Source: an uncultured Phycisphaera sp.
GTDB lineage: Bacteria > Planctomycetota > Phycisphaerae > Phycisphaerales > SM1A02
DNA length: 50,961 nt
Reading direction: 5' to 3'
Assembly: GCA_937919685.1 (NCBI GenBank)
Contig: CALFOM010000097.1
Span: forward strand, 1-50,961
In this document: piece after piece, positions 14,369 to 38,205 of the stretch
Numbering within the stretch: position 1 is the first letter of the stretch
Layout of the letters: every line of letters begins with the position of its first letter
Notes under the pieces: generated by a model
Told to the model about the DNA's origin: nothing
Databases searched by the model: none
Seen by the model: only the letters and a program-made list of their open reading frames with translations
Position numbers and translations under genes: made by a program

Positions 14369-15157
14369 TCAGACAAGCCGATGGCCACCGGCCCGTAGCC
14401 TTCGTAGATCCTCCGCGGTCGGCATCGAGAAGTGCGTCGCCTCCTCCGCGGGATTCGGAATCAGCGGTGGATCACCGGCTTCCACCAGTCGGACGCATTC
14501 AAGAATAGCCTCTGCCGCCAGATCCTTGGATCGAGCCATCACGTCCTCAAGCGAATCCCATGGGTTGAGACGGTAGCGCTTCTGCACCAAGATCGGCCCG
14601 CTGTCGAGTTTTGCGTCGACGAAATGCACCGATACCCCGCCTTCCTTCTCGCCGTTCGCCAGTGTCCAGAAACTCGGCATCAAACCCCGGTACTTCGGCA
14701 AGAGCGCGCCGTGGCAGTTGACGATTCCCTGCGGTGTCTGTTCCCGGAGTTTCTTCTTGTAGAGCTGGGTTCCCGAGATTGAAAGGATGAACTCGACCTT
14801 CTTCTCCCGGAGATGCGACAGGAACGCCTCGCTGTTGACGTCGATCGCTTCAGTGACTTCGACGCCATACTTCCGCGCGACAGCGCGAACCGAATGACAC
14901 CGCTTCGTCGATCCCAGCCAGTCGTTCTCGATCTTGCCGAGAATCTTCTTGATCAAGTACTTCCGGAGCTTCCACTGGAAGTAACCGAATCCGTAGAGCC
15001 GGCGCAGATCCATCGCCGTCTGGAAGACCGTCCGTTTGCCTTGGGCGACACTCTGAATGTTCACGCCTGCAGTGGTGTCGTGGTAGTCGCGAAGGTACTT
15101 GTCGAGAACCTTCGGAAGCAGGAACGGTTCGTTCTGGATGAAGACGTACTTGATCAC
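14369..15157 (-). CDS. Formyltransferase-like protein (probable sugar N-formyltransferase)
   Basis: The 262-residue protein belongs to the formyl_trans_N fold. The catalytic triad of the family is visible: Asn147 and His149 in VNCHGALLPKYRG and Asp185 in LDSGPIL. It lacks the methionyl-tRNA formyltransferase C-terminal tRNA-binding domain and has a long basic insert near residues 40-90. In an exopolysaccharide locus the likely substrate is an amino sugar nucleotide with N10-formyl-tetrahydrofolate as donor; this is inference. No sugar aminotransferase is in the window. The start is GTG at 15157, overlapping the upstream glycosyltransferase as GTGA, with a GGAG nine bases before it. Confidence 0.8.
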   Translation of the reverse strand: MIKYVFIQNEPFLLPKVLDKYLRDYHDTTAGVNIQSVAQGKRTVFQTAMDLRRLYGFGYFQWKLRKYLIKKILGKIENDWLGSTKRCHSVRAVARKYGVEVTEAIDVNSEAFLSHLREKKVEFILSISGTQLYKKKLREQTPQGIVNCHGALLPKYRGLMPSFWTLANGEKEGGVSVHFVDAKLDSGPILVQKRYRLNPWDSLEDVMARSKDLAAEAILECVRLVEAGDPPLIPNPAEEATHFSMPTAEDLRRLRAGGHRLV

Positions 15158-16407
15158 GCGTCTGGACTCCCACTGGGGTTCGGATCGCCGGTGTCACCGG
15201 CCAGTTCTTGGAGAAGTTCCCGCCACGCCGCGAGGCGGTGAATCGCCCCGTGCTCTTCGACCAGCGCGAGTCTGGCCAACTCGCCGGCCTTCCGGCAGGA
15301 TTCGGGGTCGTCTGCATATCCACGAATCATCGAGGTCAACGAGTCGACGTCACCCTGTCGAACGGAGGCGCCGCATTCATTCTCCACGATGACTTGAGAA
15401 ATCTCGCTTCGTTCGTTGCCGATGAAGATCGCGGGGCGTCCGGCGGCCAGGATTCCGAAGAGTTTGCTGGGAACCATGATCCCCTCTACGCCTTCAAGCA
15501 GGCTCACGAGATGGGCGTCGGCCGCACTCAAGAGTTCGTCGAGTCGTTCGCGAGGCTGATACGGCGCGATCACACAAGTCGACTCAAGGCCGTGTTCGTG
15601 AACAAAGCGCTCGACCTGTTCCTTTTTCTTGCCCCCACCAACGAACGCGAATCGGATTCGATCATCGTTCTGAAGTTCGCGAGCAGCATTCAAGAAGGTA
15701 TCGACGTCATGTCCGATGCCGAAGTTGCCGGAGTACATGATCAGCGTGCGGTCCCCGATGTTCCAATCCCGGCGATACGAATTCGCCTCGCGAGGAACCG
15801 GTTTGACCTCCTCCTGATCGCTCCAGACGCCAATCATTCGAATCCGGTCTTCCGGCACGCCCTTGCTGCGAACCAGATCGGCCATGCAACGACCGAGCAC
15901 CACGTCGGCATCCGCGGCGCGAAGGCAGGAACGATTCACCGATTCAAAGAAGCGACTCGCCAACGAGCCCGGTCGCATCACGCCACAGGCGATCGGAAGA
16001 TCCGGGTACAAATCCATAACCCAGTAGACGCATCTGGTCCCCTTCACGAGACGGAGGATCCTTCCCACCATCGCGATGAATGGCGGTGTCGTGAAGCAGA
16101 TCACCACGTCGTGCTTCGGAAGAGTCAATGCTCTGGTCATCGCTGCGAGATAGAAGAAGGCGAAGTCCGCCACTCGGGCGAGAATGCTCGACTTTCCAAA
16201 GAACGATCGACCGACTCGATGGATCTCGATCCCGTCGACCGTCTCACGAGACGGGAGCACCGCTCCCTTCTGACCGTAGAGCGAACGAGACGCGATCGCC
16301 GAGACGTCATGACCATGTCGAACCAGATCCCGCGCGAGATCATGCCCGTGCTGCGCCGTCGCGGCAACGTCTGGAAAAAAGACCTGGTTGATCAGGAGGA
16401 CCCGCAT
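15154..16407 (-). CDS. Glycosyltransferase family 4 protein (WbuB-like)
   Basis: The 417-residue protein starts MRVLLINQVFFPDVAATAQ, the style of WbuB-type GT-B enzymes that act on undecaprenyl-linked sugars. A hydrophobic patch (FAFFYLAAMTRAL) may dock to the membrane. The C-terminal domain begins at LIMYSGNFGIGHDVDTFLNA, and the donor-site region contains GVEGIMVPSKLFGILAAGRP. It follows fcl by four bases and precedes the formyltransferase with a 4-base overlap, so it is in the middle of a tight operon. It probably transfers a sugar, possibly fucose, to the growing repeat unit. Specificity is not predictable. Confidence 0.87.
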   Translation of the reverse strand: MRVLLINQVFFPDVAATAQHGHDLARDLVRHGHDVSAIASRSLYGQKGAVLPSRETVDGIEIHRVGRSFFGKSSILARVADFAFFYLAAMTRALTLPKHDVVICFTTPPFIAMVGRILRLVKGTRCVYWVMDLYPDLPIACGVMRPGSLASRFFESVNRSCLRAADADVVLGRCMADLVRSKGVPEDRIRMIGVWSDQEEVKPVPREANSYRRDWNIGDRTLIMYSGNFGIGHDVDTFLNAARELQNDDRIRFAFVGGGKKKEQVERFVHEHGLESTCVIAPYQPRERLDELLSAADAHLVSLLEGVEGIMVPSKLFGILAAGRPAIFIGNERSEISQVIVENECGASVRQGDVDSLTSMIRGYADDPESCRKAGELARLALVEEHGAIHRLAAWRELLQELAGDTGDPNPSGSPDA

Positions 16408-16411
16408 GAAT

Positions 16412-17386
16412 TCAGATCACTGACTCTGCCGCGATGATCCGCGACTGGTTCGCTCGATACCACTCGATCGTCTGACGCAGTCCGGTCTCGAAGTCCACCG
16501 CGGCTTTCCAACCAAGAAGTTTCTCTGCGCGACTGGTATCGAGGCATCGGCGGGGTTGCCCGTCCGGCTTGCTCGGATCCCAGCGAATCTCACCCTCGAA
16601 CCCGGACAGGCGGGCAATCAACTCCACCAATGACCGGATCGTGATCTCCATGCACGTGCCCAGGTTGACCGGCGTCGGCTCATCAAGCAGTTCGGCGGTG
16701 CGAATGAGCCCCTCGGCACAATCATCTACATAGAGGAACTCGCGACTGGCCGAGCCAGTTCCCCAGCACTCGATGTGACCTCGTCCCTCGTCGACCGCCG
16801 AGACGCACTTGCGAATCAAGGCGGGGATCACATGGCTGGTGTGCGGGTGGAAGTTGTCGAAGGGGCCGTACAAGTTGACCGGAAGTACGTAGGCGCTGGA
16901 GAGGCCGTATTGCCGGCGATATCCGTCGAGCATGACCATCGCCGCCTTCTTCGCGATCCCGTAGGGGGCATTGGTCTCCTCTGGATAGCCAAGCCAGAGA
17001 TCCTCTTCTTTGAAGGGGACCGGCGTGAACTTGGGATACGCGCAAATTGTGCCGACCTGAACAAACTTGAAGTCGGGATGGGCTTCGATATGAATGCGAG
17101 CCTGCTCGATCAGGTTCAAGGACATCGCCATATTGGCAAAGAAGTACCGGCCTGGATTGTCCTGATTCGCGCCGATCCCCCCCACCTCGGCCGCCAAATG
17201 CAGGACAAGATCGGGGTCGTGATCCTTGTAGAGCCGAATCGCAGCCTCTTCGTGGACCAGGTCGTAGTCCTTTTTTCGAGGAATGAAGATCTCCCCCACA
17301 CCGCGGTCCTTCAGCTTCTGCTGTACCGCCCGCCCAAGGAAACCGGCTCCACCCGTCACCACGACTTTCTTACCCTGAAGATCCAT
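16412..17386 (-). CDS. fcl: GDP-L-fucose synthase
   Basis: This SDR-family epimerase/reductase converts GDP-4-keto-6-deoxy-D-mannose to GDP-L-fucose with NADPH. The 324-residue protein has the Rossmann motif TGGAGFLG near residue 11, [16 protein letters not shown], the catalytic Tyr142 and Lys146 in APYGIAKKA, and the family segment [28 protein letters not shown]. The ATG at 17386 was selected over longer frames because CGGAG lies six bases upstream. It heads an operon of five genes. It is divergent from gmd, the preceding pathway step, across a 253-base gap that likely holds promoters for both. Confidence 0.94.
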
Positions 17387-17639
17387 GGTTTCTCCGAAAA
17401 AAGACGTGCGCGTAGCCTCTGCTCGATTCCCCGTAGTCATCGACCTTCCGCCGCGTCAGCATCGACGAAACCGATCGCTCGCATGAAGAATCGCGGTTCA
17501 GATGATTTCCGAACTCGAGGATGCGGGAACTCCGCAAGCCTGAGCCTCGAAGGACCGATACTACCCTGCCCGGTTACCGTGAGATCCCGGTTTTCTCGAG
17601 GTGCGGATCCCGCGCACCGTCGTTGTTTTGGAGCACCAA

Positions 17640-18698
17640 ATGACAGATCAGACACCCCCTCGAGCATTTATCACCGGCATCACCGGACAGGATGGCAGTT
17701 ACCTCGCGGAACTACTCCTCGAGAAAGGTTACGAAGTCCACGGAATCATCCGGCGCTCCGCCAGTTTCAACACCGGCCGGATTGATCACATCTATCAAGA
17801 CCCCCATGATGGGGGTATCAGACTCAAGCTTCACTATGGCGATCTCTCCGACTCCGCCAGTCTGATGCGACTGATGCAGGACATCGATCCGTGCGAGGTC
17901 TACAACCTCGGCGCCCAGAGCCATGTTCGGGTGAGTTTCGACCAACCGGAGTACACCACCGACGTGGTCGCCACCGGCACCTTGAGACTTCTCGAGGCGA
18001 TCCGGAACCAGCAGGATCGGACGGGGCACAAGATCCGGTTCTATCAGGCGTCGAGTTCGGAGATGTTCGGCAAGGTTCATGAAGTGCCGCAGAAAGAGAC
18101 CACACCCTTCCATCCGCGATCACCCTACGGATGCGCGAAGGTGTGCGCACACTGGATGACCGTGAACTATCGCGAGAGTTACGACATGCACGCCTCCTGT
18201 GGCATCCTCTTCAACCACGAGAGCCCGAGACGAGGCGAAACGTTCGTCACCCGAAAGATCACGCGTGCGGTCGGTCGCATCAAGCTCGGCCTGCAGAAGA
18301 AGCTCTTCCTCGGGAATCTCGACTCCATGCGCGACTGGGGCTTCGCCGGAGACTACGTGGAAGCAATGTGGCTCATGCTCCAACAGCCCGAGGCCGACGA
18401 CTATGTCATTGCCACGGGAGAGATGATCTCCGTCCGCCGATTCTGCGAACTCTGCTTCGCCGAGGTCGGGCTCGATCCTGATGAATTCATCGAAATCGAT
18501 CCTCGGTATTTCCGGCCTGCGGAAGTTGCGGAGCTGCTTGGCGACGCGACCAAGGCGAAGGAAAAACTGAACTGGACACCGAAGACCAACGTTGAGGAAC
18601 TCGCGAAGATGATGGTTGCGACGGATCTAGAGATCGCGCGACGAGAAAAGACCCTGGTGGATGCTGGTCACTCGGTGGCTGCCCCCATGAACGACTGA
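17640..18698 (+). CDS. gmd: GDP-mannose 4,6-dehydratase
   Basis: Gmd makes GDP-4-keto-6-deoxy-D-mannose from GDP-D-mannose, the precursor of GDP-L-fucose and GDP-rhamnose. The 352-residue protein has the NADP-binding [13 protein letters not shown], the [11 protein letters not shown] segment, SSEMFG, the catalytic [12 protein letters not shown] (Tyr and Lys) and the [16 protein letters not shown] signature. The ATG at 17640 has a GGAG seven bases upstream; a longer frame has no family support. It is followed after seven bases by the polymerase-like gene. GDP-mannose synthesis genes are not in the window. Confidence 0.96.
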
Positions 18699-18705
18699 TC
18701 TCAAA

Positions 18706-20052
18706 ATGTCGATCGACACCGTTCTCACCATCTTCGGTTTCTTAATGGTCTTCGCGCCGCTGGCTGCGATTTTGTACAACTATCTCGTGGTCGGTGATGA
18801 CCTGATCACCGCACGGCATCTCTTCCTCCTTGGCTGCTCGAAGTTCTTCGGAATCGCCGCGTTGACGACCGGAATCACCGGCCTGTACCGCGGGAATCAC
18901 CCGATGTCGGACGTTCTGCTCTTGTTTGCAGGGACGGCCTTGTTCTTCGTGGCCTTCTGGTACGCCTACAACCACTGGTCGATTCCGCAGAAGATCGCGA
19001 TCAAGCGATGGCGTACCTCGCCAACGGTGAACACCGCTTCGATTCTCGTTGTGGGTTCCATCGCGATGTTCTTCGGCTTGCTCGCATCTGTACTTCCAGT
19101 CGAGATACCCGTGATCGGCCAGATCACGAACGTCCTCGGCAAGTTGTTGCCCGCGGCCAGTGTGGCACTGTTCTTCTTCTGCTGGCTCCGAAACCCGGTC
19201 AACCTGATCTACCTCGCCGCGACCGGAGCCGCCTTCCTGCTTGCGATTTTCGTCGCCCTCTTTGGAGCCGGCCGGCATCCTCTTTTCGCCGCTCTGATTG
19301 CGATTCCAATCGCTTGGTACTGGGCAAAATGGCGGTACCAACGCCCTGCTGCAACCATCGGACGGATTCTCGCCCTCGGGGTTGGAGCCGCGATCGTGAT
19401 TCTTGCGTACAGCGGATTCCGCCACGACTTCATGGGTGATGCCGACAGTGGTATTGCGATGGATCGAGTTCGCCAGTTGATGAAGTTTCAACTGGAAACT
19501 TCCGGAGACGCTGAGAGCTTTCTCCAAGAGGATGCGATCACGGTGTCACTCCTTTGCATTGAGGAGTTCCATCGCAATGGCGACCCAGACTACTTCCACA
19601 CCCTTCGATTCGTCCTAAGCAACCCGATCCCGCGCGAGATCTGGCCCGAAAAACCGCAGGCACTCGGCGAGAGCCTCCCTGAGAGTCTCGGGGAGTTCTC
19701 CGACGGCTACGTGAACTGGGGTACCGGGATCATCGGAAACGCATTCCATGACGGCGGACTGTGGATGGCCGGAATCTATGGGCTTCTCGTGGGAGGCGTC
19801 TTCCGGATCTTCGACGACATTCTGCGACGACAACCGCTCAATCCCTGGCCGATCGCGATGCTTGCTGCGATGAGTCCGAAGATCGTTGCCTACAGCCGGG
19901 GTGATATCGCAATCTATACGGTTGAACTCGTCGGTCTCACGGTCATCACCGTGATCATGATGAAGTTGATCAAGCCGATCTTCGGCACGGCCTCCGAAGA
20001 TGAGTTTCGCATGGACGATGACAGTATTCCTGCCGAGCATGCTGCGGACTGA
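18706..20052 (+). CDS. Wzy-like polysaccharide polymerase (multi-pass membrane protein)
   Basis: The 448-residue protein has about ten predicted membrane helices separated by a large periplasmic-type loop (around residues 240-350, including HTLRFVLSNPIPREIWPEKP). This topology and its location after gmd suggest an O-antigen/exopolysaccharide polymerase that joins undecaprenyl-linked repeat units. The pattern PIPREIWPEKP in a late loop is typical of oligosaccharide-repeat polymerases. Sequence identity in this family is low, so the call rests on topology and context. No strong ribosome binding site precedes the ATG; coupling to gmd, seven bases upstream, is likely. Confidence 0.65.
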   Translation: MSIDTVLTIFGFLMVFAPLAAILYNYLVVGDDLITARHLFLLGCSKFFGIAALTTGITGLYRGNHPMSDVLLLFAGTALFFVAFWYAYNHWSIPQKIAIKRWRTSPTVNTASILVVGSIAMFFGLLASVLPVEIPVIGQITNVLGKLLPAASVALFFFCWLRNPVNLIYLAATGAAFLLAIFVALFGAGRHPLFAALIAIPIAWYWAKWRYQRPAATIGRILALGVGAAIVILAYSGFRHDFMGDADSGIAMDRVRQLMKFQLETSGDAESFLQEDAITVSLLCIEEFHRNGDPDYFHTLRFVLSNPIPREIWPEKPQALGESLPESLGEFSDGYVNWGTGIIGNAFHDGGLWMAGIYGLLVGGVFRIFDDILRRQPLNPWPIAMLAAMSPKIVAYSRGDIAIYTVELVGLTVITVIMMKLIKPIFGTASEDEFRMDDDSIPAEHAAD

Positions 20053-20099
20053 CCTCGAAGATCGTTCGCCCCTCGTCGCTTCCGACGCCTGATAGAAAT

Positions 20100-20129
20100 C
20101 GCCCCGCAGGACTTTGGTCCTGCGGGGCG
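20100..20129 (+). terminator. Strong hairpin after the polymerase gene
   Basis: CGCCCCGCAGGAC and GTCCTGCGGGGCG form a perfect 13-bp stem with a 4-base loop (TTTG), 48 bases after the polymerase stop. The following sequence is TTATCG, so the U-tract is weak. It probably ends the gmd-polymerase transcript, and on the opposite strand it could serve the gene at 20220, although the repeat array lies between. Confidence 0.7.
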
Positions 20130-20136
20130 TTATCGC

Positions 20137-20190
20137 GATGATCATGATGATCATGATGGTCTTGATTATCTTGATGATCTTGATGATCAT
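20137..20190. repeat. Six 9-bp tandem repeats (GATGATCAT family)
   Basis: Six consecutive 9-bp units follow the pattern GATGATCAT, GATGATCAT, GATGGTCTT, GATTATCTT, GATGATCTT, GATGATCAT. Outer copies are identical and inner copies diverge. The array lies between the hairpin at 20100-20129 and the end of the convergent gene at 20220. Reading frames through it encode only Ile/Met/Lys repeats, so it is taken as non-coding. Confidence 0.85.
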
Positions 20191-20219
20191 CAGCGCCGGC
20201 GGGTCTCGGCTCTCACCGA

Positions 20220-21452
20220 TCACTTCCTCTTGGTCTTCGACTTGGCCTGAGAATTAACCTTGGCTTTGGTCTTCGACCTAGCCTTCGACTTCTCCACGCC
20301 ATTCGAAGAGGAAGGATTGATCTTCAGAATTCCGGTAGAACGATCACCTTTCGTGGTCGTGGCAGGTGTCGCTGAATTCGAATCTCCTCCCGTCGCAGTT
20401 GACGCTGGAACCAGTGGCTTCGCTCGGATGGAATTCTCCGGTGACTTGCCAGAGATCTCCGAACCGGCGGAGGAACTTGATTTGATTCCCAGTTGCTCGT
20501 CGATCCCCTCCACGAGTCGTTCGAATGGCACGCCTGCGGCTCGGAGGCCATCGGTCCGAAGAATGACCGTGTCGCCTTTCAAGAGTGCCGCCCTGGTCCG
20601 TTGAATGATGTCTTCGAGTACTGCGGCGTCCGTGCTCTTACCCGGATAGTCCCGGATCCAACGCACCACCTCTCGCTTCATCTGTGAATTCGGAAGCGCC
20701 CAGACCGCAGCATCCTGATGAACCTCGGGATCGGACCGCTTCCACCACGTGTCGACGGCGAATACCGGAAACTCCGACCATTTCGGATTGGCCTTCTTGG
20801 GTCTTGACTCGACGTAGATCGGAATCCCGATCGACTCGAGGTACTTGTAAAAATGAAATGCCGGTCCATCGTCCGGCAGCTTCACGGCAGCGTCCGCGCC
20901 GATCGACGCGCCAGCCATAAGGAGCGGCTTCACACAGGCCAGCATGGTCCCAAGGACTTGGGCGGGGTTGCCGGAATCGAAGGCCGTCTGCAGTCGATCG
21001 TCGTCAGGATCTGCCGTACCGAGGTACGCGATGAGTTCGACGGGTTCTCCGAACGAACCTTGAGTCACCGGCCGCCAAGCCTCGGAGAAGTTCTCGGTGA
21101 GGACATCGAGGCCGGCGTCACGGGCATCCAGATACTGATCGAACTGCATGACCTCGCCGGAGACCGTCCCAAACGGGTTGTGAAGCCAGAATCGCCGAAT
21201 ACCCCAGTCGTAGACGTCTTTCGCTCGGTTATCGACAAACACGGGCCAGCCGCCGGAATCGATCTGGTTCATCGATACTTTCCGTCGGCCTTCGTCCTCG
21301 GACGATCCCGCAATGAGCCAGCCCTCGATGATTCGCTCTCGAGCAGGCCGGATGACCTTCTCTTCTGCGGCTTGAACGATCGAACTCGCCCCACCTAGGA
21401 GACTCGCTATCCCGATCCACATGATGAACTGGCTTTGACGTTGCGATTTCAT
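20220..21452 (-). CDS. Secreted protein of unknown function with lysine-rich tail
   Basis: The 410-residue protein begins with a signal peptide (MKSQRQSQFIMWIGIASLLGG, probable cleavage after VQA). The body (about 35-310) alternates strands and helices with aromatic-rich stretches such as WGIRRFWLHNPFG and ends of strands rich in Asp/Glu (YLDARDAGLDVLTENF, GIPIYVESRP). This looks like a TIM-barrel, possibly a glycoside hydrolase. After that comes a Ser/Thr-rich linker and a C-terminal tail of alternating Lys, Ser, Arg and Ala that resembles nucleic-acid- or polyanion-binding tails. A TGAGG site eight bases before the ATG supports the start. It sits inside the exopolysaccharide locus between polymerase and flippase. 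I do not recognise the family. Confidence 0.8.
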   Translation of the reverse strand: MKSQRQSQFIMWIGIASLLGGASSIVQAAEEKVIRPARERIIEGWLIAGSSEDEGRRKVSMNQIDSGGWPVFVDNRAKDVYDWGIRRFWLHNPFGTVSGEVMQFDQYLDARDAGLDVLTENFSEAWRPVTQGSFGEPVELIAYLGTADPDDDRLQTAFDSGNPAQVLGTMLACVKPLLMAGASIGADAAVKLPDDGPAFHFYKYLESIGIPIYVESRPKKANPKWSEFPVFAVDTWWKRSDPEVHQDAAVWALPNSQMKREVVRWIRDYPGKSTDAAVLEDIIQRTRAALLKGDTVILRTDGLRAAGVPFERLVEGIDEQLGIKSSSSAGSEISGKSPENSIRAKPLVPASTATGGDSNSATPATTTKGDRSTGILKINPSSSNGVEKSKARSKTKAKVNSQAKSKTKRK

Positions 21453-21580
21453 AAAAGTACCTCAGAGATGATCCGGTGGTTGCCTGGAGATCCCAAGGCA
21501 CTCTATTCTCGTATTCTGAATCGTCCGGGACAACTCTTCCGTTTTCGATTCTCGCTCGAGTAAACCGTACAGATCCCCCA

Positions 21581-23092
21581 ATGCTCACCCAACAAGCCGC
21601 TCGCGGTGCCAGTCTGATGCTTTCAGCCAGCCTTCTGGGACGGTTCGCCGCCTTGATCGCACAGGTGGTCACTGGACTCGTCCTGATTAATGAAGACTTC
21701 GGCGTCTTCGCGATCGCGATCGGCATCCAGTCAATCGCCGGGGTGCTGCAGGGTGGAAACGCGCTCTCCTACTTAGTCACGCTTCCACCATCGAAGCGGC
21801 GTTTCAGAACCGGGACCGTCTTCGGCATCTGCAATGGGTTCTACCTGGTCGGCGTCATACCGATGCTGCTCTTCGCCCCGGCGATCGCGGCCCACTTCGA
21901 TGAACCGCGACTGGTGGTCCTTTTCTGGATCCTCGCCGCGACCATGATGATCTCCCCGGTGAGGTTCGTACTCAGAGGGCGAGTCAACGCCAGGCTCGCA
22001 TTCGGGGCGAGCGCCAAGGCCACCATCCTCAACAATCTCGTCGCCTATCCGCTGACGATCATCCTCGCCATCACCTTGCGTGACCCAACAGCATTGGCGC
22101 TTCCGGTTCTTCTGGGCTCACTTGCTGAAGTGGTTTATCTCTGGACAGTGGCAAAGCCAGATATCGAGGACTTCCGCCCTCGACGTCGATTCGTGATGCC
22201 ACTCCTGCACCAGTTTCGTTGGCTGATCATTGGCGCCATCATGACCAGCCTCTTCAATCGAGGCGATTACATGGTCGCTGAGTTTCTCGTCGAGACCGCG
22301 GTCCTCGGAACCTACTTCTTCGGCTATCAGTTGGCGGTGCAACCCGGACGGCTCTTCACGACCACCGTGCTCAACATTCTCGTGCCTGTGGTGAAGCGCC
22401 TGTCCCATGACAAGGTTCGACTGGCCGCAGTGGTCCGGCGCCTTATGAGCACTGGTGGCTTTGCGATTGCCGCCGTCAATCTCTCCATGCTGGCGATGAT
22501 CGAACCGCTCGAACATCTGATCTGGGGCGAGAAATGGGCAGACACGATTTTCACGGTTCAAGTCCTTTCGGTCGGTCTCACCTACACCACGATTCTGGGA
22601 ATCGGGACCGCTCCGCTGATGGCCGAACGTCGTTATCGAGAGGATGTGATCTGTGGCGGCCTTCGCGCCATTGCCGTTGTCGGAGGTGCTGCCTTTGGAG
22701 CCATCGTCTGGGGTAACGTCAATGGAATTGCAGGTTCGGTCTCCGTGGCGATGACGGTTGCTGCCGCGGTTGGGACGGGGTTGGTTTTTCGTTGGCATGG
22801 CATCCCGGTCCTCTCGGGAATGATCCATCTAATTCGATCGACCACGCCCCTCGTCGTGGCGGCCATCCTCACCGCGCTCATCGGCAACCAAGTGATAGAG
22901 GCGCTCGAACCCGGCCGAGTCGGCGCCGCCATCGCACTGATCGCTGCCAGTGTCACTTACGGTGTGCTTTCCATTCTCTCGATGGCACTCATTCCCGCGG
23001 ACACTCGCAGCGAGGTCCTTCGGCTTCTCCCCGGCAGGATTCGGCGATTCATCCCCGAATCTCTGCTTCAGCCGCCGACCCGAGATTCATAG
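21581..23092 (+). CDS. Wzx-like polysaccharide flippase (MOP superfamily)
   Basis: The 503-residue protein has 12-14 hydrophobic segments and the layout of lipid-linked oligosaccharide flippases. It opens MLTQQAARGASLMLSASLLG with an amphipathic start and has early helices around LIAQVVTGLVLINEDFGVFA. The loop NRGDYMVAEFLVETAVLGTYFFGYQLA is typical of the polysaccharide-synthesis flippases that move undecaprenyl-linked repeat units to the periplasm. The ATG at 21581 was preferred over earlier in-frame starts that add a non-hydrophobic stretch; no clear ribosome binding site is visible. It is divergent from the secreted unknown and overlaps the convergent glycosyltransferase by 25 bases. Confidence 0.88.
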   Translation: MLTQQAARGASLMLSASLLGRFAALIAQVVTGLVLINEDFGVFAIAIGIQSIAGVLQGGNALSYLVTLPPSKRRFRTGTVFGICNGFYLVGVIPMLLFAPAIAAHFDEPRLVVLFWILAATMMISPVRFVLRGRVNARLAFGASAKATILNNLVAYPLTIILAITLRDPTALALPVLLGSLAEVVYLWTVAKPDIEDFRPRRRFVMPLLHQFRWLIIGAIMTSLFNRGDYMVAEFLVETAVLGTYFFGYQLAVQPGRLFTTTVLNILVPVVKRLSHDKVRLAAVVRRLMSTGGFAIAAVNLSMLAMIEPLEHLIWGEKWADTIFTVQVLSVGLTYTTILGIGTAPLMAERRYREDVICGGLRAIAVVGGAAFGAIVWGNVNGIAGSVSVAMTVAAAVGTGLVFRWHGIPVLSGMIHLIRSTTPLVVAAILTALIGNQVIEALEPGRVGAAIALIAASVTYGVLSILSMALIPADTRSEVLRLLPGRIRRFIPESLLQPPTRDS

Positions 23093-24228
23093 ACCGCTTC
23101 GAATTCGGCGGCGACTCTGCTCGTGTCGAGGTTCTCCAGCGTCCACTTCCGGCCCGCCGCCCCCATCGCGACACCATCGCGTTCGCCGCTCGCGAACGAG
23201 GCGATCGCCTCGGCGAATCGTGCCGCGCTCTGAGGAATGATCACCCCCCCGCCGGATCGCTCGATTTCGTGACGGGTATCGACGAGGTCCGTGGTCACGA
23301 CCGGCGTGCCTGACGCGAGCGACTCGAAGAAAACGAATCCAAAGTTCTCCTGGCTCGTGGGAAGCGCGAAAACGTCGCAAGCGGCGTAAAGCGAATTCTT
23401 GAGATCACCGCCGACGTGTCCTGCCCAGGTGAAACGCCCTTCGACGCCCGCCGTCTCGGCTCTGGCCCGCATCGCCGCGACATAGTCGTCATCACCCGTG
23501 CCAGCGACGATGACCCGAACGTCCGCCCGTCCATCACCCTGAAGGATCGCGACCGCGTCGATGAGATGCTCAATGCCCTTCTTGACTTGGATCCGACTCA
23601 AGAACAGCACGGTGAACGACGGCTCGTTGATTTCCGGCCAAGCATTCTGCGCCAAGGTTTGATCAGGTGGTTCGGCGTACGGTTCCAGATCGATCAAGTT
23701 GGGAACGACGACACCGGTGCCACGTGGAAACCACTTCCTTGACTGTTCGAGTTCTGCATCCGCCGTGCAGTGGACGGCACCCGCCTTCTCCAGATACCGA
23801 CGACCCCCGACCGCGAGAAAGACCCGCTTCCGCAAGCCGCTCTGGTCCATTGACCAATCGTCGAGCATGCCTCGAAGACTCACGACGTACGGAATGTTCT
23901 CTCGCCGACACGCCGCCGCGACCTGAAGGTTGGCCGGCTCCCAAACGCCGTGCATGTGAAGAATGTCGAATCGGGTGATCGCCTCCCGAACCCGTTGGAG
24001 TCCCGCTGGGGAGAGACGACCAAAGGACCCTCGCACCGCAGGAAGCTCTACCACTTCGGGCATGTCCGATGTTCCATCCAGCCAAGACGACGGAACATCG
24101 CGAACGTTCGTAGTAAGCAGGCCGACTTGATGTCCTCGCGCATGCATGGTCGCGACCTGATCAATCACGGCGCGAGGCGGGCCGCCCCGGGTGAAGTCGA
24201 TGTCTTGCATGTAGTGCGCAATACGCAT
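23068..24228 (-). CDS. Glycosyltransferase family 4 protein
   Basis: The 386-residue GT-B enzyme begins MRIAHYMQDIDFTRGGPPRAV, with the Gly-Gly-Pro loop common in GT4. The inter-domain segment VLFLSRIQVKKGIEHLIDAV and the donor-site motif ENFGFVFFESLASGTPVV, with both glutamates of E-x7-E, are present. It would add one sugar of the exopolysaccharide unit. Its last 25 bases overlap the end of the convergent flippase gene. It is the last exopolysaccharide gene before the flagellar genes. Substrate specificity is not predictable. Confidence 0.88.
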   Translation of the reverse strand: MRIAHYMQDIDFTRGGPPRAVIDQVATMHARGHQVGLLTTNVRDVPSSWLDGTSDMPEVVELPAVRGSFGRLSPAGLQRVREAITRFDILHMHGVWEPANLQVAAACRRENIPYVVSLRGMLDDWSMDQSGLRKRVFLAVGGRRYLEKAGAVHCTADAELEQSRKWFPRGTGVVVPNLIDLEPYAEPPDQTLAQNAWPEINEPSFTVLFLSRIQVKKGIEHLIDAVAILQGDGRADVRVIVAGTGDDDYVAAMRARAETAGVEGRFTWAGHVGGDLKNSLYAACDVFALPTSQENFGFVFFESLASGTPVVTTDLVDTRHEIERSGGGVIIPQSAARFAEAIASFASGERDGVAMGAAGRKWTLENLDTSRVAAEFEAVYESRVGG

Positions 24229-24317: not shown

Positions 24318-24809
24318 TCATCCCGCGAGATGGATGCGGCCGCCGATGGGGGCCCCGTCGCTGCCCGTTGAGCCCGCAATATCCGTCGTGTGCAAAACGC
24401 TCGAAGCCACGGCGCCCGATGACGCCGCATTTTCTTCGATGAGTTTCTCCATCGCCAGTCGCCAAGTCTCCCGTTCGTACGTCAGGATCTCGACAACCTT
24501 CCGCACGCCTTCCGGATCTCGTTCGCTCATGGCCTCGACCAGGCTCGTATAGAGGAAGAGGTAGAGGCTGGAGAGTCGCTCGCAGAGTTCCGGTGCAAGC
24601 TCGGCACGGAGTCCGGATGTGAGTTCTGTGAGAATCGCCCGGCACTGACGACTTCCGTCATATGACTTCTCAGGGTTCTTATGCTCGAGCCCCTCTCTGG
24701 CCTGTTCGGCGAATCGGATCGCACCGTCTAGGAGAAGCAGGCGTAGTTCCGCGGGCGAAGCCGTCATGACCTTTGTGCGGAGATATTCTTGGGCTTGGTG
24801 GGTCGTCAT
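24318..24809 (-). CDS. fliS: Flagellar export chaperone FliS
   Basis: FliS binds flagellin in the cytoplasm and prevents premature assembly. The family signature is clear from residue 4: QAQEYLRTKVMTASPAELRL followed by LLLDGAIRFAEQA, then helices with RAILTELTSGL and SLYLFLYTSLVEA. The 163-residue length exceeds the usual 120-140 because of a 30-residue Ala/Ser/Gly-rich tail. The start at 24809 puts the motif at the usual distance from the N-terminus. A longer frame overlaps fliD and has no similarity. It lies 106 bases downstream of fliD, the common order. Flagellin itself is not in the window. Confidence 0.9.
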   Translation of the reverse strand: MTTHQAQEYLRTKVMTASPAELRLLLLDGAIRFAEQAREGLEHKNPEKSYDGSRQCRAILTELTSGLRAELAPELCERLSSLYLFLYTSLVEAMSERDPEGVRKVVEILTYERETWRLAMEKLIEENAASSGAVASSVLHTTDIAGSTGSDGAPIGGRIHLAG

Positions 24810-24915
24810 GGCATAGAACTCATCGGCTGTCTGCGGCGGAGAAGTGAGATCGTCGGCGGCAGAACCCGAATAATCCGCATGATTCGAACCAAGGAACGCG
24901 CAAATTCCGCGCCGA

Positions 24916-27900
24916 TCAGCCGAACAAGGAACCGGCAATTGCCAGATTCTGAGAGATCAATCCGAGTGAGGACTGCTGACTCTGAAGTCGTGCGAGTGCG
25001 GTTTCCATCGCGTTGAACTCGCGGAAGAGGCGTGCCTCCTTGGCCGCGAGCCGCTCGTCGATTAATTCAATCCGCTTGTTCTGGGCTTCGATCAACGCAT
25101 CAAAGCCCTTGCTCGCCAAGGTCACCGTACCGTCGATGGAATTGGTGAGTTTGCTCACCGCCTGCTTGAACAGATCGCCGAACCCAAGCTCGGAGTAATC
25201 CGTCGAGACCCGATCCACGGTCACTCCCGGAGCAATGGTCTCGGTACTCGTCCCCTGGCTCTTGTACGCCGCGAAGAGATTCTCAACTGCTTCTGGATCA
25301 TCTGCGTACGCCGTATCGAAACGCTCCGAATCGAATGTGATCTTGCCTTCCGCTCCGATCCGGATACCGACTTCCGAGAGGAAGCGGAACTGGGTGTCGA
25401 CCCCGACCGCAGCCTGCTGCAGAGTTCGGTACATGTCCTGCTTGATCTTGGCGACCGTTGGATCACCGAGAAGTGGACCCCGAGCCTCTTTCTCCGCGTC
25501 GTAGACATCGAATTCGTTGATGCGTCCGATTACTTCGTTGAAGCCGTCGACGAACAACTGAACCGCCGTCATGATCCCCTCTTCGTCGCGGCTGACGTTG
25601 ACGGTGACCGGCGTGTCCGAAGCCGATTGAAGATCGAGTTCGACGCCGGCCACGATGTCATTGATCACATTGCTGGTGCTCTCGACGAGAACCCCGCCAG
25701 CCCCCTCACCGATGAATACCTTCGCGTTCTTCGCTCTCGTCAGTTCGTTGAAGCCCAGATCGATTCCACCGGTGTCGACGATCAGATCGCCGGCGAGGCC
25801 CGAGATGTCGGAACTCAGCACAAGTCGAAGAGGGCTGCCGCCGGTATTGGTGTTGAGCAAGGACGCGCTCACCTGGAAGCCAGAATCGTTGACCTTTCCG
25901 ATGACTTCGTCCAGCGTGTCGGTGAGATCGAGATCGAGAATCTTCTCGTAGGATCCGTCGATCGAACCGCCGAGTTCCGCCGCTTCCCCGATGATTCCTA
26001 AATCGCGTGCCGTGCTGCCGGAAACGCTTTCCACCTTGATCGCCGAGATGCCATCCGTCGCGGTGTCGACGAGGATCATGCCGTCGCCGTTGTCGTTGAT
26101 CCGTGCTTCGACATCGAGGCCACGACTGTTGATCTCCCGCATGACGTCATAGAGATTCGACGAATCACTTCCGATGTCGACGATCGCCGTGAATCCATTC
26201 GCATCGGTGATCTTGAACTTGCCGAGTCCAACACCGCGACCGTAGTTCAAGTCATCGAGCCTGGCCGATGCGGAAACATATTCCCGCTGGATATTCAAAC
26301 CGCGGACAGTGTCCGAGGCGATATCTGTCGTGATGCCCAGCGCTTCGGCCGCTGCGCCTGAAACCACCAGGTTGCCGGTGCCGCCGCTGAGATCTTCGAG
26401 CGCCAGACCATTTTTCTCTGCGTTCAGGCGGATGGTGACCTCCACCCCAGCCAGCTTGAGTTGACTCTCGGCACTCGTGACGAGTTCATCGAGCGTCTCG
26501 AACTGATCGAGCCCGGTGATGGTCAGTGAATCGCCCTGGCGATCGGTAAAAGTGATTTCGGTTCGACCGTCGAGACCGGCGCCTCCGTTGAGACTCGCGA
26601 TCAGGCTGGTGCCGACGCCGCCGAGAATTCGCTGCCCTTGCAGACCGACCGACTCGGCATCCGTCTCGAACCCGAGATCGATCAACGTCTGGGAGGCGTA
26701 TACGCCACCCACGCCATCATCGAGAACCTTGACCAGTTCGCCCGCAGCCCCGAGGTCGATTCCCTTTCCTTCGGCGTTGATGCTTGCCGTGACGGCACCT
26801 TCGGTCTGATCGTTGATCCGATCGATGACTTCCTGAACCGTTGTCGCTCGAGCGATCTCGACAGTATTCGGAATCCGATCGCCAATGATCGTGTTCCCGG
26901 CGCCACCCCCAGCGCCAGTGAAGATGCCGAGGTCCTCCGCGGTCTCGTCGTCGAACGGCCCGGCGCCGATCACTTCGAGCGCGCCGCCACCGTCCATCGA
27001 ATCGCTCAGTTGAAATCCCTGCCCGTCATCACGGACACTCATGATCACCTGACCGGCGCCGAGTTCGGTCTCCAGCGTCTCGTTGACGCGGGCAAGCATC
27101 TCCTGCACTGTGGTGACCGTCTCACTCGAGACCTCCCCATCGTCATCAAGAATATCGCCAAGCGAGATGTCGACTTGGGTTCCGTCGCTGGTCACGATGG
27201 AAAAGTCGGCCTGACCCTCGGTACTGTTGATCCGAATTCCGTCACCGTCATTGAGATCCGAGAGCAGCGTCTCAAAGTCGATCTCCGCGTCCTTTCGACC
27301 GAGATCGATCGAGTGAACCACGCCGCCGTCGCCGCCGATCTGGATTCGAAAGTCGGCCACGTTGTCGCGGATGAAGACGCCGTTGTCATCGTTGAGCGAC
27401 GCGAGCATCGTCGTCGCGCCTACCAGATTGATCCTCGCGCCTTCGATGGTGTCGTCGTCGACATTGCCGGTGATGCCGAGATCGCTTGCCGTGGTGGTTC
27501 CGCCAATGTTCTGCACGATGAAGTTGCCTGTTCCCGTCGATTCGTCATTCAGAATGATCCCGTCGTTCTTGATCGACGCAATGACTCTGATCCCGGTCTG
27601 TTCGTTGATCGTGTCGACGACTTCCGACAACGTCGACGCGAGCGACAGGTCGATGATCACGTCGTCGCCATTCCGATCCTGAATTCGGATGGAACCGCGT
27701 TCGACTCCCCCGCCTCCGTTGGTATCTTCGAGAAGAATGTCGCGAGTCAGTCGGCCATTCCCCCATTCAAACGACATGGAGTCGAGGCCGAGCGGCTCAA
27801 GCGTGCTGCTGGTGAATCCGCGGGACATCACCTGGCTCGTCGAGACAAGTTGCTTGACGCGGAATGAATACTGGCCAGTAATCGCCGATGTGGACGCGCG

Positions 27901-28155
27901 GGCGAGAAGAACGCCTTCATTACTGCTGACGGCATTCGTCGACCGAAAAACATTGTTCTTCCGGAACGCAGAGGATGCGCTCTCGAGCGAAAGAAGCCTG
28001 GCATTGACATCGAGCAACGCGGCTTTGGAAGCATTGAGCCCACCGATGCGCTGATAGATCGGCATCTTGCTCTGGGCATCCAGCGCCAGCAATTGCTGAA
28101 TGATGGAGCCGGTATCAATACCGCTGATCAATCCGATGCTGCTGCTGATGGACAT
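24916..28155 (-). CDS. fliD: Giant flagellar filament-cap protein FliD with repeated hook-IN modules
   Basis: FliD caps the growing filament and folds incoming flagellin. The N-terminus (SSSIGLISGIDTGSIIQQLL, residues 4-23) and the C-terminal part (about 820-1079, with VQLFVDGFNEVIGRIN and a final coiled coil) match FliD. The protein has 1079 residues, about twice the usual 450-550. The extra length is a chain of six related segments ending near residues 229, 412, 496, 609, 722 and 802. Each has a hook-IN-like core of the type TLSEVVDTINEQ ... V.ASI.. and most close with DLGI or DLGF. The middle is very acidic. An AGGAG site about ten bases before the ATG supports the start. It lies downstream of a 66-residue unknown and upstream of fliS. 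Confidence 0.93.
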   Translation of the reverse strand: MSISSSIGLISGIDTGSIIQQLLALDAQSKMPIYQRIGGLNASKAALLDVNARLLSLESASSAFRKNNVFRSTNAVSSNEGVLLARASTSAITGQYSFRVKQLVSTSQVMSRGFTSSTLEPLGLDSMSFEWGNGRLTRDILLEDTNGGGGVERGSIRIQDRNGDDVIIDLSLASTLSEVVDTINEQTGIRVIASIKNDGIILNDESTGTGNFIVQNIGGTTTASDLGITGNVDDDTIEGARINLVGATTMLASLNDDNGVFIRDNVADFRIQIGGDGGVVHSIDLGRKDAEIDFETLLSDLNDGDGIRINSTEGQADFSIVTSDGTQVDISLGDILDDDGEVSSETVTTVQEMLARVNETLETELGAGQVIMSVRDDGQGFQLSDSMDGGGALEVIGAGPFDDETAEDLGIFTGAGGGAGNTIIGDRIPNTVEIARATTVQEVIDRINDQTEGAVTASINAEGKGIDLGAAGELVKVLDDGVGGVYASQTLIDLGFETDAESVGLQGQRILGGVGTSLIASLNGGAGLDGRTEITFTDRQGDSLTITGLDQFETLDELVTSAESQLKLAGVEVTIRLNAEKNGLALEDLSGGTGNLVVSGAAAEALGITTDIASDTVRGLNIQREYVSASARLDDLNYGRGVGLGKFKITDANGFTAIVDIGSDSSNLYDVMREINSRGLDVEARINDNGDGMILVDTATDGISAIKVESVSGSTARDLGIIGEAAELGGSIDGSYEKILDLDLTDTLDEVIGKVNDSGFQVSASLLNTNTGGSPLRLVLSSDISGLAGDLIVDTGGIDLGFNELTRAKNAKVFIGEGAGGVLVESTSNVINDIVAGVELDLQSASDTPVTVNVSRDEEGIMTAVQLFVDGFNEVIGRINEFDVYDAEKEARGPLLGDPTVAKIKQDMYRTLQQAAVGVDTQFRFLSEVGIRIGAEGKITFDSERFDTAYADDPEAVENLFAAYKSQGTSTETIAPGVTVDRVSTDYSELGFGDLFKQAVSKLTNSIDGTVTLASKGFDALIEAQNKRIELIDERLAAKEARLFREFNAMETALARLQSQQSSLGLISQNLAIAGSLFG

Positions 28156-34503: not shown

Positions 34504-37500
34504 TCAATGGCCAGATGACGTGTCCACGGTCTTCAGCGTGGAGAGATAGGCCACAAGATCCCGGACTTCGCGCGGCGTAAGGATCGGCCGGAGATTGGGC
34601 ATCGCGCTCGCATCGCCGTACCCCTCGACCAACACCGCCTGGGGATCGATCACTGATTGCAGGATGGTCGCGGGATTACTCCGAGCAGCGATGCCATCGA
34701 GCTTCGGTCCGGCGTCTCCGCCGCGGCCGTCAATGACATGACATCGAAGACACTGCGCTCCGGCGTGGTACCTCGCTACCAGGGCGCCGGCCTCCGGGTC
34801 GCCGCCCTCGAGCGAGATTGACCATTCAACTGCGGAGTCCATGGCTCGATCGTTCCAAGCTCGGGCGATCGCCGCGGTCTCCGGATCAGTCGAGCGAAGC
34901 GCGGCTTCCTGAACTTCGACCGCGATCGGCGAAGACGATCCACCGACTCCGACTAGGCCGACGGCCAGACCGAGAATTCGCTTTGAAGCACGCGGGTCGT
35001 CGAGGCCTGAAAGGCCTCTCACCGCGCGCTGCTGCTCGTATCGGGTGCCGATCGACATCGCTTCGATATAAAGCTCCAGTCCTTCGGCGGGGTCACGGAT
35101 CGTGGTTTGATCTCTCGCTTCCGCTCGCAGCGTCGGCGCGTCGCTGGCAAGGCTGCTGGCGATCGCCTCGTTCATGCGTTCGTCGTCGCTTCGTCCGAGT
35201 TCACGTAAACATGCCACGCGGTCCGCGGGCGACTCTTCTGGATTCATCACCGTGTCGAAGAGGGCCGTGGGGTCCAGACCGACGCCGACCCGCCCCGCGA
35301 GTTCCCGTGATGCGGTTCGGATCGAGCCCCGGGCGTCCTTGGACATCGCGGGAAGGGTTCGAGCGTAGATTGGCTTGAGGGCGGCGGAGTCACGCGGCGC
35401 ATTTTCAACGGGGCGCCACCACCCGAGCACGCGATCTCGCGGCCCGGGAGATTCGAAGGTGGACATGGCGGCCATCGCTTCATCTCGAATCACCGGCGGA
35501 AGATTCGGATTCATAGCGATCCCCGCGATGGCCTCGAGATTTGATGCCGCGCCGAGCCGAAGATTCGCATCGATGATCCGACGAAGCAGCGGCGTCTCCA
35601 TCGGATCCAGATCGGATCGACCGCCACCGATCGGACCCTCGAACGTGCCGTCAGGCATGGTCCAGCCGACGGCGATGTGATTCCCACCGCCCCCCTGCGC
35701 ATGACGCGCTTCGAGCAGCACAATCTGGCCCGCCTCCAGTTCGATTGGCTCACTCTGTTGACCGCTCTCCGCTCGCCATTCATTCGGACCAACCCAACGG
35801 TCCAACCTCGCAATTTCACGAAGCGAATCTCCCTCTCCGTTTTCGGCGATGCGAAGCACCGATGTATCGTCGCTTACGATCGCGAATCGATAGGTGCCGG
35901 TCTCCGAAATCAGGAGGCGGGATTCCAAGCGAGTGAGATAGTTGCGGCCACCGTCGTTGACCCCTTCGAAGATGCTGACCTCTTCGACAAGGTCCGGATC
36001 CTGCTCGAAAGCGGCGAGGGTCGTCAGATCCTGTCCGGAATGATCCTCCGCGGTCCTGCGAATCTCACGCCGGACCTTGAGGTCGCTGCTCGGCCGAACC
36101 GGGCCGGTCGGACGGTAGTCCGCCGCAAGCGAAGCAAGTGCGGGCATCGCGTCTGGTACCGGAAGGTCATGAACCGCGCGAGCGGCTTCAGTGCGTATGG
36201 AAAGGTCTTCGTCGAAGAGTAATCGCTCGAGATTCGAGTCGGCCCATCTTCGAAGGGTGAGCACCGCGACTCGACGAAGTGCTGGCGACGGGCTCACGAT
36301 GAGTTCTTCAACCGTGGCTCGATCGCCGATCCGAGTCAGCGCGACGACGCCGGCGTGTCGCAACCATCGGTCTCGATCATCATTCTCCGCGAGCATGGCG
36401 ACAAGATAGGGGGTCACCGCAGGATCACCGATCGCACCAAGCGTCATGGCTGCGTGGTATCGCACTCGCAGCGATGGATCCGCCAGTGCTTCGACCAGCG
36501 CGTCGGTACCGGGCGCGAACGCTGGATCACCAAGGGTCCGAGCAGCCTGCGCCCTGACCTCGGGATCGGCGTCCTTGAGCAGGACGACCAGTGGTGACAT
36601 CGCCGCGGTGATTTTTCGATTTCGTGCGGCCTCGCTTCGGGCCACCTGACCGAGACCCCAGATCGCATTCAACCGTGGTGGCGTGCGAGCGTCGTATCGG
36701 GCGACATCCACCAGCGCTGCCACCGCGCGACGATCCGCCAGTTCGAACTGCGCCCTTTGACGAATACGGGCGTCATCGTTGGCAAGGAGTTCTGCCAATC
36801 GAAAAACCCCGAGGTCATCAAATCCAGCGATGGCGATCGCCTTCGCTTCGGCGATTCGCGGGTCGTTCACCGAGTCTCGGTGGGTGATGGCATGGAGCGA
36901 GCCTTTGCCGGTGGCTCCCCAACCCCCGCCCCATTCCGAAACCAGGATTCGACCATCCCAGTCGAAGGCGACGTCGGTATTGAGCATGCCGGTCGCGAAA
37001 GGCCGCGGGTTCTCGATCCGGTATCCCGCGCCGTCCGGAACCGCCTTGAAGGCCCACACTTTGCTGTTCGGCGCCGAACCCGTGAAGTCACACATGAAAA
37101 AGTGATTCGCGAATTCACTCGGAAGCCCGAGGCCCGGATGATGAGCCAGACCGGATGGCCCAGCGCCGACATGCGCAAGCGGAGGAAGCGTCCAGTCGGG
37201 GCGGAACCGGACGTTCTCGTCAGTCACCACTTCCCAGATCCGTTCCTGTTCCCAGGGGCCACGAAGGTTCGCCCCGTCGAGTGTCTGATAGTCCATCGTC
37301 CAACCGGTCTCGCCGGCTTCTGCGACGAAGACCACTCTGGCCCGATCACCGGAGTCCGACGTGTTGTCGCCGGTAAACAGATCACCGACCTCGTTGAATG
37401 CGATCTCCTGCGGATTGCGAAGACCGGTCGCAAAGACCTCGAGGTTCGATCCGTCGCGTTCACAACGGAAGACCGCGCCGGCTCGTGGATCTGCCAGCAC

Positions 37501-38205
37501 TCGGCCATCGGCCGTCTCAAGGTGGTAGCCGCGATCACCGATCGACCAGTACACGCGACCATCAGGCCCGAGCGCGAGGCCGTGCATGTCGTGGCCGTAC
37601 AACGCGAATCGAACGCCAAAACCGCTCTGGATCGACTCGCGGACTTCGGCGATGCCGTCTCCATCGACATCCTTGAGCCGCCAGAGATTGGGAATATTCG
37701 TGTACCAGACCTCGTCGCCTACGGTCATGACGCCGGCGCCGATGCCGTCGGGGACGTCGTTGAACGGGCCCGCGAAGATCGTGGACGTGTCATAGATCCC
37801 ATCACCGTCGGCATCGATGGACCGACGAACTCGATCCGGCTTCTCGGTATAGAAGTCCATCCCGTTGGCCCGCTTGTCCTTCCATTTCTCCATGAAGGCG
37901 ATGCGGTCTTCGACGGTCAGGGACTGCAAATCATCTTCGAGTTGCCAGGGGCTGGATCGATTGTCCATGGCGCCGTGATTGGTCCGTTCGGTCTCGGCGA
38001 CCAGCAGCCTTCCGTCGGGGTCGATCCAAAACGCGACCGCATCTTGAATCTGCGGCTCGGTCGCGATCACTTCCGCGCTGAATCCATCGGGGACTTTCGC
38101 TGTTGACGGCGGTGGGGCATTCTGGTCGATTCCCGTGCAAGGGATTACCACGATGGACCAGGTCTGGAACAGTCCCAGCAAGATGACGTTGATCAGTGAA
38201 AACAT
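34504..38205 (-). CDS. PVC-type multimodular c-type cytochrome (beta-propeller, HEAT repeats, CxxCH)
   Basis: The 1233-residue protein starts with a signal peptide. Then come a beta-propeller like soluble glucose dehydrogenases (about 35-460, with VPDGFSAEVIATEP and GDNTSDSGDRARVVFV), HEAT repeats (about 470-700), a PA14-like carbohydrate-binding insert (about 750-870, FAIVSDDTSVLRI), more helical repeats, and a c-type haem domain at the end. The haem motif CLRCH is at 1152-1156 with a probable Met ligand at 1202. It is likely a periplasmic oxidoreductase, possibly of sugars, and the family is expanded in planctomycetes and relatives. GGAG six bases before the ATG supports the start. The electron acceptor is unknown. 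Confidence 0.9.
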   Translation of the reverse strand: MFSLINVILLGLFQTWSIVVIPCTGIDQNAPPPSTAKVPDGFSAEVIATEPQIQDAVAFWIDPDGRLLVAETERTNHGAMDNRSSPWQLEDDLQSLTVEDRIAFMEKWKDKRANGMDFYTEKPDRVRRSIDADGDGIYDTSTIFAGPFNDVPDGIGAGVMTVGDEVWYTNIPNLWRLKDVDGDGIAEVRESIQSGFGVRFALYGHDMHGLALGPDGRVYWSIGDRGYHLETADGRVLADPRAGAVFRCERDGSNLEVFATGLRNPQEIAFNEVGDLFTGDNTSDSGDRARVVFVAEAGETGWTMDYQTLDGANLRGPWEQERIWEVVTDENVRFRPDWTLPPLAHVGAGPSGLAHHPGLGLPSEFANHFFMCDFTGSAPNSKVWAFKAVPDGAGYRIENPRPFATGMLNTDVAFDWDGRILVSEWGGGWGATGKGSLHAITHRDSVNDPRIAEAKAIAIAGFDDLGVFRLAELLANDDARIRQRAQFELADRRAVAALVDVARYDARTPPRLNAIWGLGQVARSEAARNRKITAAMSPLVVLLKDADPEVRAQAARTLGDPAFAPGTDALVEALADPSLRVRYHAAMTLGAIGDPAVTPYLVAMLAENDDRDRWLRHAGVVALTRIGDRATVEELIVSPSPALRRVAVLTLRRWADSNLERLLFDEDLSIRTEAARAVHDLPVPDAMPALASLAADYRPTGPVRPSSDLKVRREIRRTAEDHSGQDLTTLAAFEQDPDLVEEVSIFEGVNDGGRNYLTRLESRLLISETGTYRFAIVSDDTSVLRIAENGEGDSLREIARLDRWVGPNEWRAESGQQSEPIELEAGQIVLLEARHAQGGGGNHIAVGWTMPDGTFEGPIGGGRSDLDPMETPLLRRIIDANLRLGAASNLEAIAGIAMNPNLPPVIRDEAMAAMSTFESPGPRDRVLGWWRPVENAPRDSAALKPIYARTLPAMSKDARGSIRTASRELAGRVGVGLDPTALFDTVMNPEESPADRVACLRELGRSDDERMNEAIASSLASDAPTLRAEARDQTTIRDPAEGLELYIEAMSIGTRYEQQRAVRGLSGLDDPRASKRILGLAVGLVGVGGSSSPIAVEVQEAALRSTDPETAAIARAWNDRAMDSAVEWSISLEGGDPEAGALVARYHAGAQCLRCHVIDGRGGDAGPKLDGIAARSNPATILQSVIDPQAVLVEGYGDASAMPNLRPILTPREVRDLVAYLSTLKTVDTSSGH

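Follow-up and report, generated by a model that had tools for sequence, protein, structure and literature searches.

What is known of the flagellar cap protein FliD centres on a head carried by legs. According to the excerpted text of PMC12221982, domains D2 and D3 make up a plate some 130 Å across, each D3 being stacked on the D2 of its neighbour, and the excerpt of PMC8306008 gives an early value of 145 Å for the cap head. In the passages available from two papers, D3 appears as a loop insertion of D2 (PMC8533109) and as a continuous middle part of the chain (PMC8533109, PMC8306008). The same passages of PMC8533109 describe a D2-D3 head that Pseudomonas can almost do without when it forms filaments and swims, with the legs carrying the function. 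Among the solved caps that we met in our comparison, each subunit has one D3 and at most two extra head domains. That Pseudomonas manages without the head leaves open what a cap head is for.

The fliD gene analysed here comes from a marine bacterium and lies in a stretch of 50,961 nucleotides, referred to as the window. Its product of 1079 residues, which is devoid of cysteine, is twice as long as the same-phylum FliDs that cluster at 450–550 residues (45 of 147), in line with the sequence-only reading, which had put the usual length at about half. The gene is a genuine fliD. Both terminal cap regions, which had been called normal, clear the curated Pfam cut-offs with ease (FliD_N 59.7 versus 24.8 bits, FliD_C 144.5 versus 25.4), and a Pfam profile search of the contigs found FliD_C in this gene only across the whole genome. 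The flagellar context and the axial set were both found: fliS directly downstream, its true start probably being a later ATG, FlgK (568 residues), FlgL (662 residues) and two flagellins (531 and 508 residues) on a separate contig (C47, read as locus L109), and FlhA. None of the NCBIfam equivalogs for FliD, which are full-length and lineage-specific models, was passed, the best being PRK06664.1 with 107 of 469 bits. The named genomes closest to the window are metagenome-derived Phycisphaerales, 'Phycisphaera sp. TMED9' among them.

Upstream of fliD lies a parB homologue. Surface polysaccharide genes stand beside the flagellar ones (15154-24228), encoding glycosyltransferases, an NAD epimerase, a GDP-mannose 4,6-dehydratase, a flippase and a 448-residue protein without a Pfam match that is presumably a polymerase. 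Elsewhere the window encodes a 728-residue alpha-L-fucosidase with F5/8 type C and PA14 domains (41416-43602), a 1324-residue protein with VIT and VWA domains (46904-50878) and a 1233-residue DUF7133-HEAT-PA14-cytochrome c protein (34504-38205), a type common in Planctomycetota.

Given that the genome was assembled from a metagenome and is broken into 254 contigs, an assembly fusion, a frameshift or a mis-called gene was considered as the source of the unusual length. The orthologues in eight other records keep the 1079 residues without gaps at 73–91% identity, and single-contig genomes (G016, G085 and G275, among others) also encode large FliDs, which rules such an artefact out and leaves its chance practically nil.

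Table. Features of the giant fliD, its neighbour and the FlgL of the same genome; positions are those of the window unless a locus is given, and residues are those of FliD or, for fliS, of its own product.
Feature	Position	Strand	Evidence
fliD, 1079 aa, ATG start, with six-module head array	24916..28155	minus	ORF, FliD_N, FliD_C, sole FliD_C match in genome
FliD_N region, residues 11-104, leg part D0-D1	27844..28125	minus	Pfam, E 4.6e-16
Module R1, residues 156-228, end DLGI	27472..27690	minus	module profile
101-residue linker R1-R2, residues 229-329	27169..27471	minus	without module-profile match
Module R2, residues 330-411, end DLGI	26923..27168	minus	module profile
Module R3, residues 426-496, end DLGF	26668..26880	minus	module profile
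Module R4, residues 534-608, end ALGI	26332..26556	minus	module profile
Module R5, residues 647-721, end DLGI; structure modelled	25993..26217	minus	module profile and model
Module R6, residues 733-802, end DLGF	25750..25959	minus	module profile and grouping with ordinary-FliD single module
FliD_C region, residues 808-1058, D2b-D1-D0	24982..25734	minus	Pfam, E 4.5e-42
fliS, flagellin export chaperone, directly downstream of fliD	24318..24938	minus	Pfam FliS, E 8.4e-26, residues 50-162
FlgL of the same genome, 662 aa, three modules of the FliD family	L109:7371-9359 (contig C47)	minus	module profiles

Between FliD_N and FliD_C lie related predicted beta-domains of about 75 residues each. The earlier claim of six related segments, most ending in DLGI or DLGF, was borne out in both parts, with five of the six ending in this way and the remaining one in ALGI. 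When pairs of segments were compared with composition-preserving shuffles (500 each), R1 resembled each of the other five at p=0.002, and 11 of the 15 pairs fell below p<0.05, the four above being R2-R6, R3-R4, R3-R5 and R5-R6. With a profile built from FliDs of the window's order, six modules were found, with none of 318 shuffled or reversed controls matching at iE<0.01 and five matching at iE<1. Since its training set included units of the window protein itself, a second, independent profile was trained only on planctomycetotal FliDs from outside the order. It returned exactly six modules (158-228, 335-411, 429-504, 536-608, 649-721 and 732-801; iE 2e-16 to 1e-6), no match in the 318 controls even at iE<1, and one module in each of two ordinary FliDs (468 and 476 residues). 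As judged by comparison of the sequences, the head region is thus a tandem array of mutually similar units. The linker between R1 and R2 bears an LN-D/G-rich motif that also occurs in other module linkers, and it is possibly a decayed module. The outer region is enlarged and acidic, as had been noted (array pI 4.05, net charge -76); the C-terminal core is likewise acidic (pI 4.46).

The fold of the modules was approached through R5, modelled from an alignment of 30 paralogous and orthologous units; this one-module alignment replaced a two-module one that had split the paralogues. The model, whose order is strand-strand-helix-strand-strand-strand-helix, reaches a mean pLDDT of 81.6 and, past residue 20, at least 85 in every block of ten. 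Against solved structures, the first 22 entries of the VIA list are without exception flagellar axial proteins (Z 5.6-7.3), including FliD at about 113-219 of Bdellovibrio, Serratia, E. coli and Salmonella, V. cholerae flagellins at 182-268, C. jejuni FlgK at 355-464 and Pseudomonas FliC; the first non-axial match is a phage tail protein at rank 23 (Z 5.5), and a VIA Z below 8 can arise from a common arrangement alone. The matches to FliD heads (Z 5.3-7.3) fall within about 112-227, apart from 6iwy, which spans 116-427 (Z 5.7). Because D3 is a continuous middle part of the protein and a loop insertion of D2, we read the stretch at about 113-219 as D3, and the modelled module accordingly resembles D3 of FliD in fold. 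The Foldseek E-values are weak (best 0.047), which we counted against an explanation based on D3. In a search of solved structures, the module profile matches C. jejuni FliD at 140-183 (E 1.5e-4); polyubiquitin, at the top of that search, was dismissed as a summing of repeats, each ubiquitin repeat contributing 3–4 bits.

The segments had also been called hook-IN modules. The Pfam family Flagellin_IN (PF07196) describes a motif of 55 positions, compared with about 75 core residues per module here, and the window protein itself stays under its cut-off (11.4 of 22.7 bits), which is a reservation about the term. The cut-off is exceeded in seven of eight multi-module relatives scanned and by one of the genome's two flagellins (29.1 and 20.2 bits), which makes the term a fair family name.

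A quick tree of 88 modules over 73 columns, most of whose forks are unresolved, offers a view of how the array may have arisen. The last modules of 12 FliD arrays fall together with those of four short, single-module FliDs (16 rows, SH-aLRT 84), and the opposite side (66 rows, SH-aLRT 88) holds the 18 FlgL modules, every one of them, and the first, middle and penultimate FliD modules except for six that stand second or third. From this clustering, R6 is probably the original D3, to which R1-R5 were added, and these five possibly share their origin with the FlgL modules. The tree clusters by position in the array and not by species (15 label changes versus 53 in shuffles), and the positions are common to families of the order, which dates the array to before those families.

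The giant protein is not exceptional in its lineage but the rule in Phycisphaerales, whose FliDs are large rather than of ordinary length. FliD_C was found in 78 of 101 genomes of the window's order and relatives, and 73 of the 79 matches lie in open frames of at least 919 residues, the other six being shorter and some of these at contig ends; nearly all Phycisphaerales FliDs found measure 919-1407 residues. With the independent profile, 20 full-length Phycisphaerales FliDs showed five modules in 11 cases, six in seven and seven in two, and none had fewer than five. Large multi-module FliDs also occur in other planctomycetotal families. In a sample of the phylum, FliD_C was present in 148 of 294 genomes, and 59 of the 147 tabulated lengths reach at least 850 residues, with a maximum of 1988. 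Intermediate counts are seen in three class-mates (L090, L091 and L092, with 2, 3 and 2 weak modules, respectively). A search for large FliDs on plasmids found none, as 25 matches in plasmid records were all below 60% identity and none covered 80% of the query. A locus titled Hyphomonas sp. TMED17 (L065, NHBW01000011.1) carries the Phycisphaerae-type fliD locus also seen in MED708 (L064), at identical coordinates on a contig of equal length; its bin name is probably wrong or the bin contaminated.

The cap is not the only axial protein with such modules. Many FlgLs of the phylum have about 300 residues, and the genome's own FlgL carries three modules of the FliD family, with one weak module in FlgK. 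By the independent profile, 11 of 28 planctomycetotal genomes combine a one-module FliD with a module-free FlgL, and 17 combine five to seven modules in FliD with two to four in FlgL, an agreement in 28 of 28. One family (f32) is mixed, with five genomes of the one-module and four of the multi-module type. Trees built without the array columns split along the line of module count with a single change, both for FliD (49 rows, 95/91) and for FlgL (28 rows, 91/87). The FliD tree left out L058-L065 (genus-mates), L098-L101 (uncertain or cut starts) and L139 (filter) and coded the three intermediate class-mates, having fewer than four modules, as 'single'; their FlgLs stand outside the count of genomes.

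FlhA, a part of the flagellar export gate, gives nearly the same split, as all 16 multi-module genomes with an FlhA fall into one starred group; in G135 no FlhA was found. This group also holds second copies from two one-module genomes, of which the one in G291 (6% contamination) may be contamination. Among the FlhA loci of the 28 genomes (L150-L179), some genomes of the mixed family have two FHIPEP genes, and the second copy of G377 falls in the other lineage. In L176 (G185:C1:618126-620040), an FHIPEP (FlhA-type) frame holds many in-frame stops, and the genome retains FliD, FlgL and flagellins.

Since the trees of FliD, FlgL and, nearly, FlhA split alike, a large FliD together with a large FlgL is, as read from these phylogenies, a mark of one of two planctomycetotal flagellar lineages and would go back to one or few events. 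With one branch in each tree, the 28 concordant genomes are not 28 events, and independent co-evolution of FliD and FlgL was rejected on the same ground. Shared descent explains the coupling, which is therefore weaker as evidence for function. Module count nevertheless provides a simple sequence mark for the two lineages, both of which occur inside one family.

We also compared sizes, using stop-to-stop frames that may overrun the gene or end at a contig end; the flagellin and FlgL sets are non-random, holding only the matches listed, with FlgL taken as the best TIGR02550 match. Among the matches listed, the 17 multi-module genomes have longer flagellins than the other 11 (median 536 versus 470 residues, p 4e-4, uncorrected for kinship), and FliD and flagellin size correlate at the level of genomes (rho 0.51, n=71) and of family medians (rho 0.66, n=29). 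Within the long lineage, defined by FliD frames of at least 850 residues and again limited to the matches listed, FlgL length correlates with that of FliD (rho 0.46, n=53) and of flagellin (rho 0.56, n=27), and FliD and flagellin length show no significant correlation (rho 0.19, n=27, p 0.34). One genome (G138) has flagellins of 829-882 residues yet a one-module FliD and a FlgL of 300 residues. These last two results contradict the idea that FliD size simply follows flagellin size.

What the array does was considered in the light of these observations. The reading that we favour, and hold to be somewhat probable, is that copies of D3, the beta-domain in a loop of D2, built up in tandem, here to six, enlarging the cap plate into a structural cover for a bulkier junction and filament. 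The helical legs D0-D1 would close off the filament as it grows and assist in flagellin folding, by analogy with other bacteria. Each subunit would carry a long arm of six beta-domains in place of the single D3, giving a plate that greatly exceeds, in width or height, the approximately 130–145 Å of known caps, or arms reaching over the junction and the young filament. Such a plate would be matched to the bulkier hook-filament junction, with its three-module FlgL, and to a filament of flagellins with outer domains; cap, junction and filament would be built from related outer domains. A full-length model from nine close orthologues has a mean pLDDT of 39.8; it was left out of the fold searches, so that any arrangement of the arm is conjectural. 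The missing size tracking between FliD and flagellin in the long lineage and the case of G138 count against structural matching, for which the co-occurrence with FlgL, owing to one or few events, is not replicated evidence. A further-reading proposal, which we consider unlikely, sees a distinct planctomycetotal class of flagella with an interlocking shell, in which FliD (five to seven), FlgL (two to four) and the filament share beta-modules exchanged between genes and the cap arms over junction and young filament would fold and seal a thick outer layer, unlike any solved cap.

The main rival to a structural cover, in our estimate somewhat improbable, is an adhesive or surface-sensing head, in which the array would be exposed at the tip and bind particles, algal polysaccharide or cells, the legs sufficing for capping. 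Adhesive FliDs are known from other bacteria, by which analogy a similar role is conceivable here, and the excerpted text of PMC8306008 discusses the extra head domains D4 and D5 of Helicobacter pylori with regard to a role as virulence factor. The near-dispensability of the head described in the Pseudomonas excerpt (PMC8533109) speaks for this possibility and counts against a structural cover. Pfam and NCBIfam searches of the array found neither a carbohydrate-binding domain nor one known from adhesins, and its strong acidity (pI 4.05), which counts in favour of a surface head, extends to the C-terminal core. Also in favour, R1 and R4 diverge fastest between close species, with identities of 0.51-0.59 to the two most distant among six orthologues compared with 0.77-0.79 in the legs, but R5 and R6 are conserved about as well as the legs (0.75-0.83). 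Since FlgL sits at the filament's proximal end, where an adhesin of the tip would serve no purpose, its similar modules favour the structural over the adhesive reading without proving it.

Quite improbable, to our mind, is a ratchet-like or near-neutral accretion, with duplications in one ancestral flagellar system merely tolerated and size having no selected function. The single-branch split in both trees, the drift in module number between five and seven and, again, the head that Pseudomonas can spare would agree with it; the absence of counts below five among the 20 Phycisphaerales FliDs, the stability of module positions over families and the conservation of R5-R6 argue against it. The structural cover thus remains our preferred reading, and heads that vary from one to seven modules, paired with modules in FlgL, permit testing what a cap head is for.

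Compared with known systems, the window protein shares with the ordinary FliD (HAP2) of 450-550 residues FliD_N, FliD_C, the neighbouring fliS and one D3-equivalent module, R6, and differs by five further D3-like modules. The FliD of H. pylori (6iwy) also has extra head domains, D4 and D5, with folds like D2 and D3 in the excerpt of PMC8306008; these are two, in another phylum, whereas here five form a tandem array of one family. Similarly, Campylobacter jejuni FliD has a domain beyond D0-D3, namely D4 (PMC7316729, PMC12221982, both as excerpted), which is inserted in the D1 bundle, whereas the present array lies in the D2-D3 head. Giant flagellins likewise multiply outer domains in an axial protein, according to the excerpt of PMC9254593, but they are filament subunits and not caps. 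In FlgL the outer domain D2 is optional, as far as the excerpt of PMC6155364 states; the FlgL described here, with three modules of the cap's own family, is unlike those with or without D2. The open-access literature searched held no description of multi-module FliD in Planctomycetota, which is weak evidence of absence. New to us is that D3 has been multiplied in tandem, reaching five to seven copies, which together with related modules in FlgL forms a trait of a lineage of Planctomycetota.
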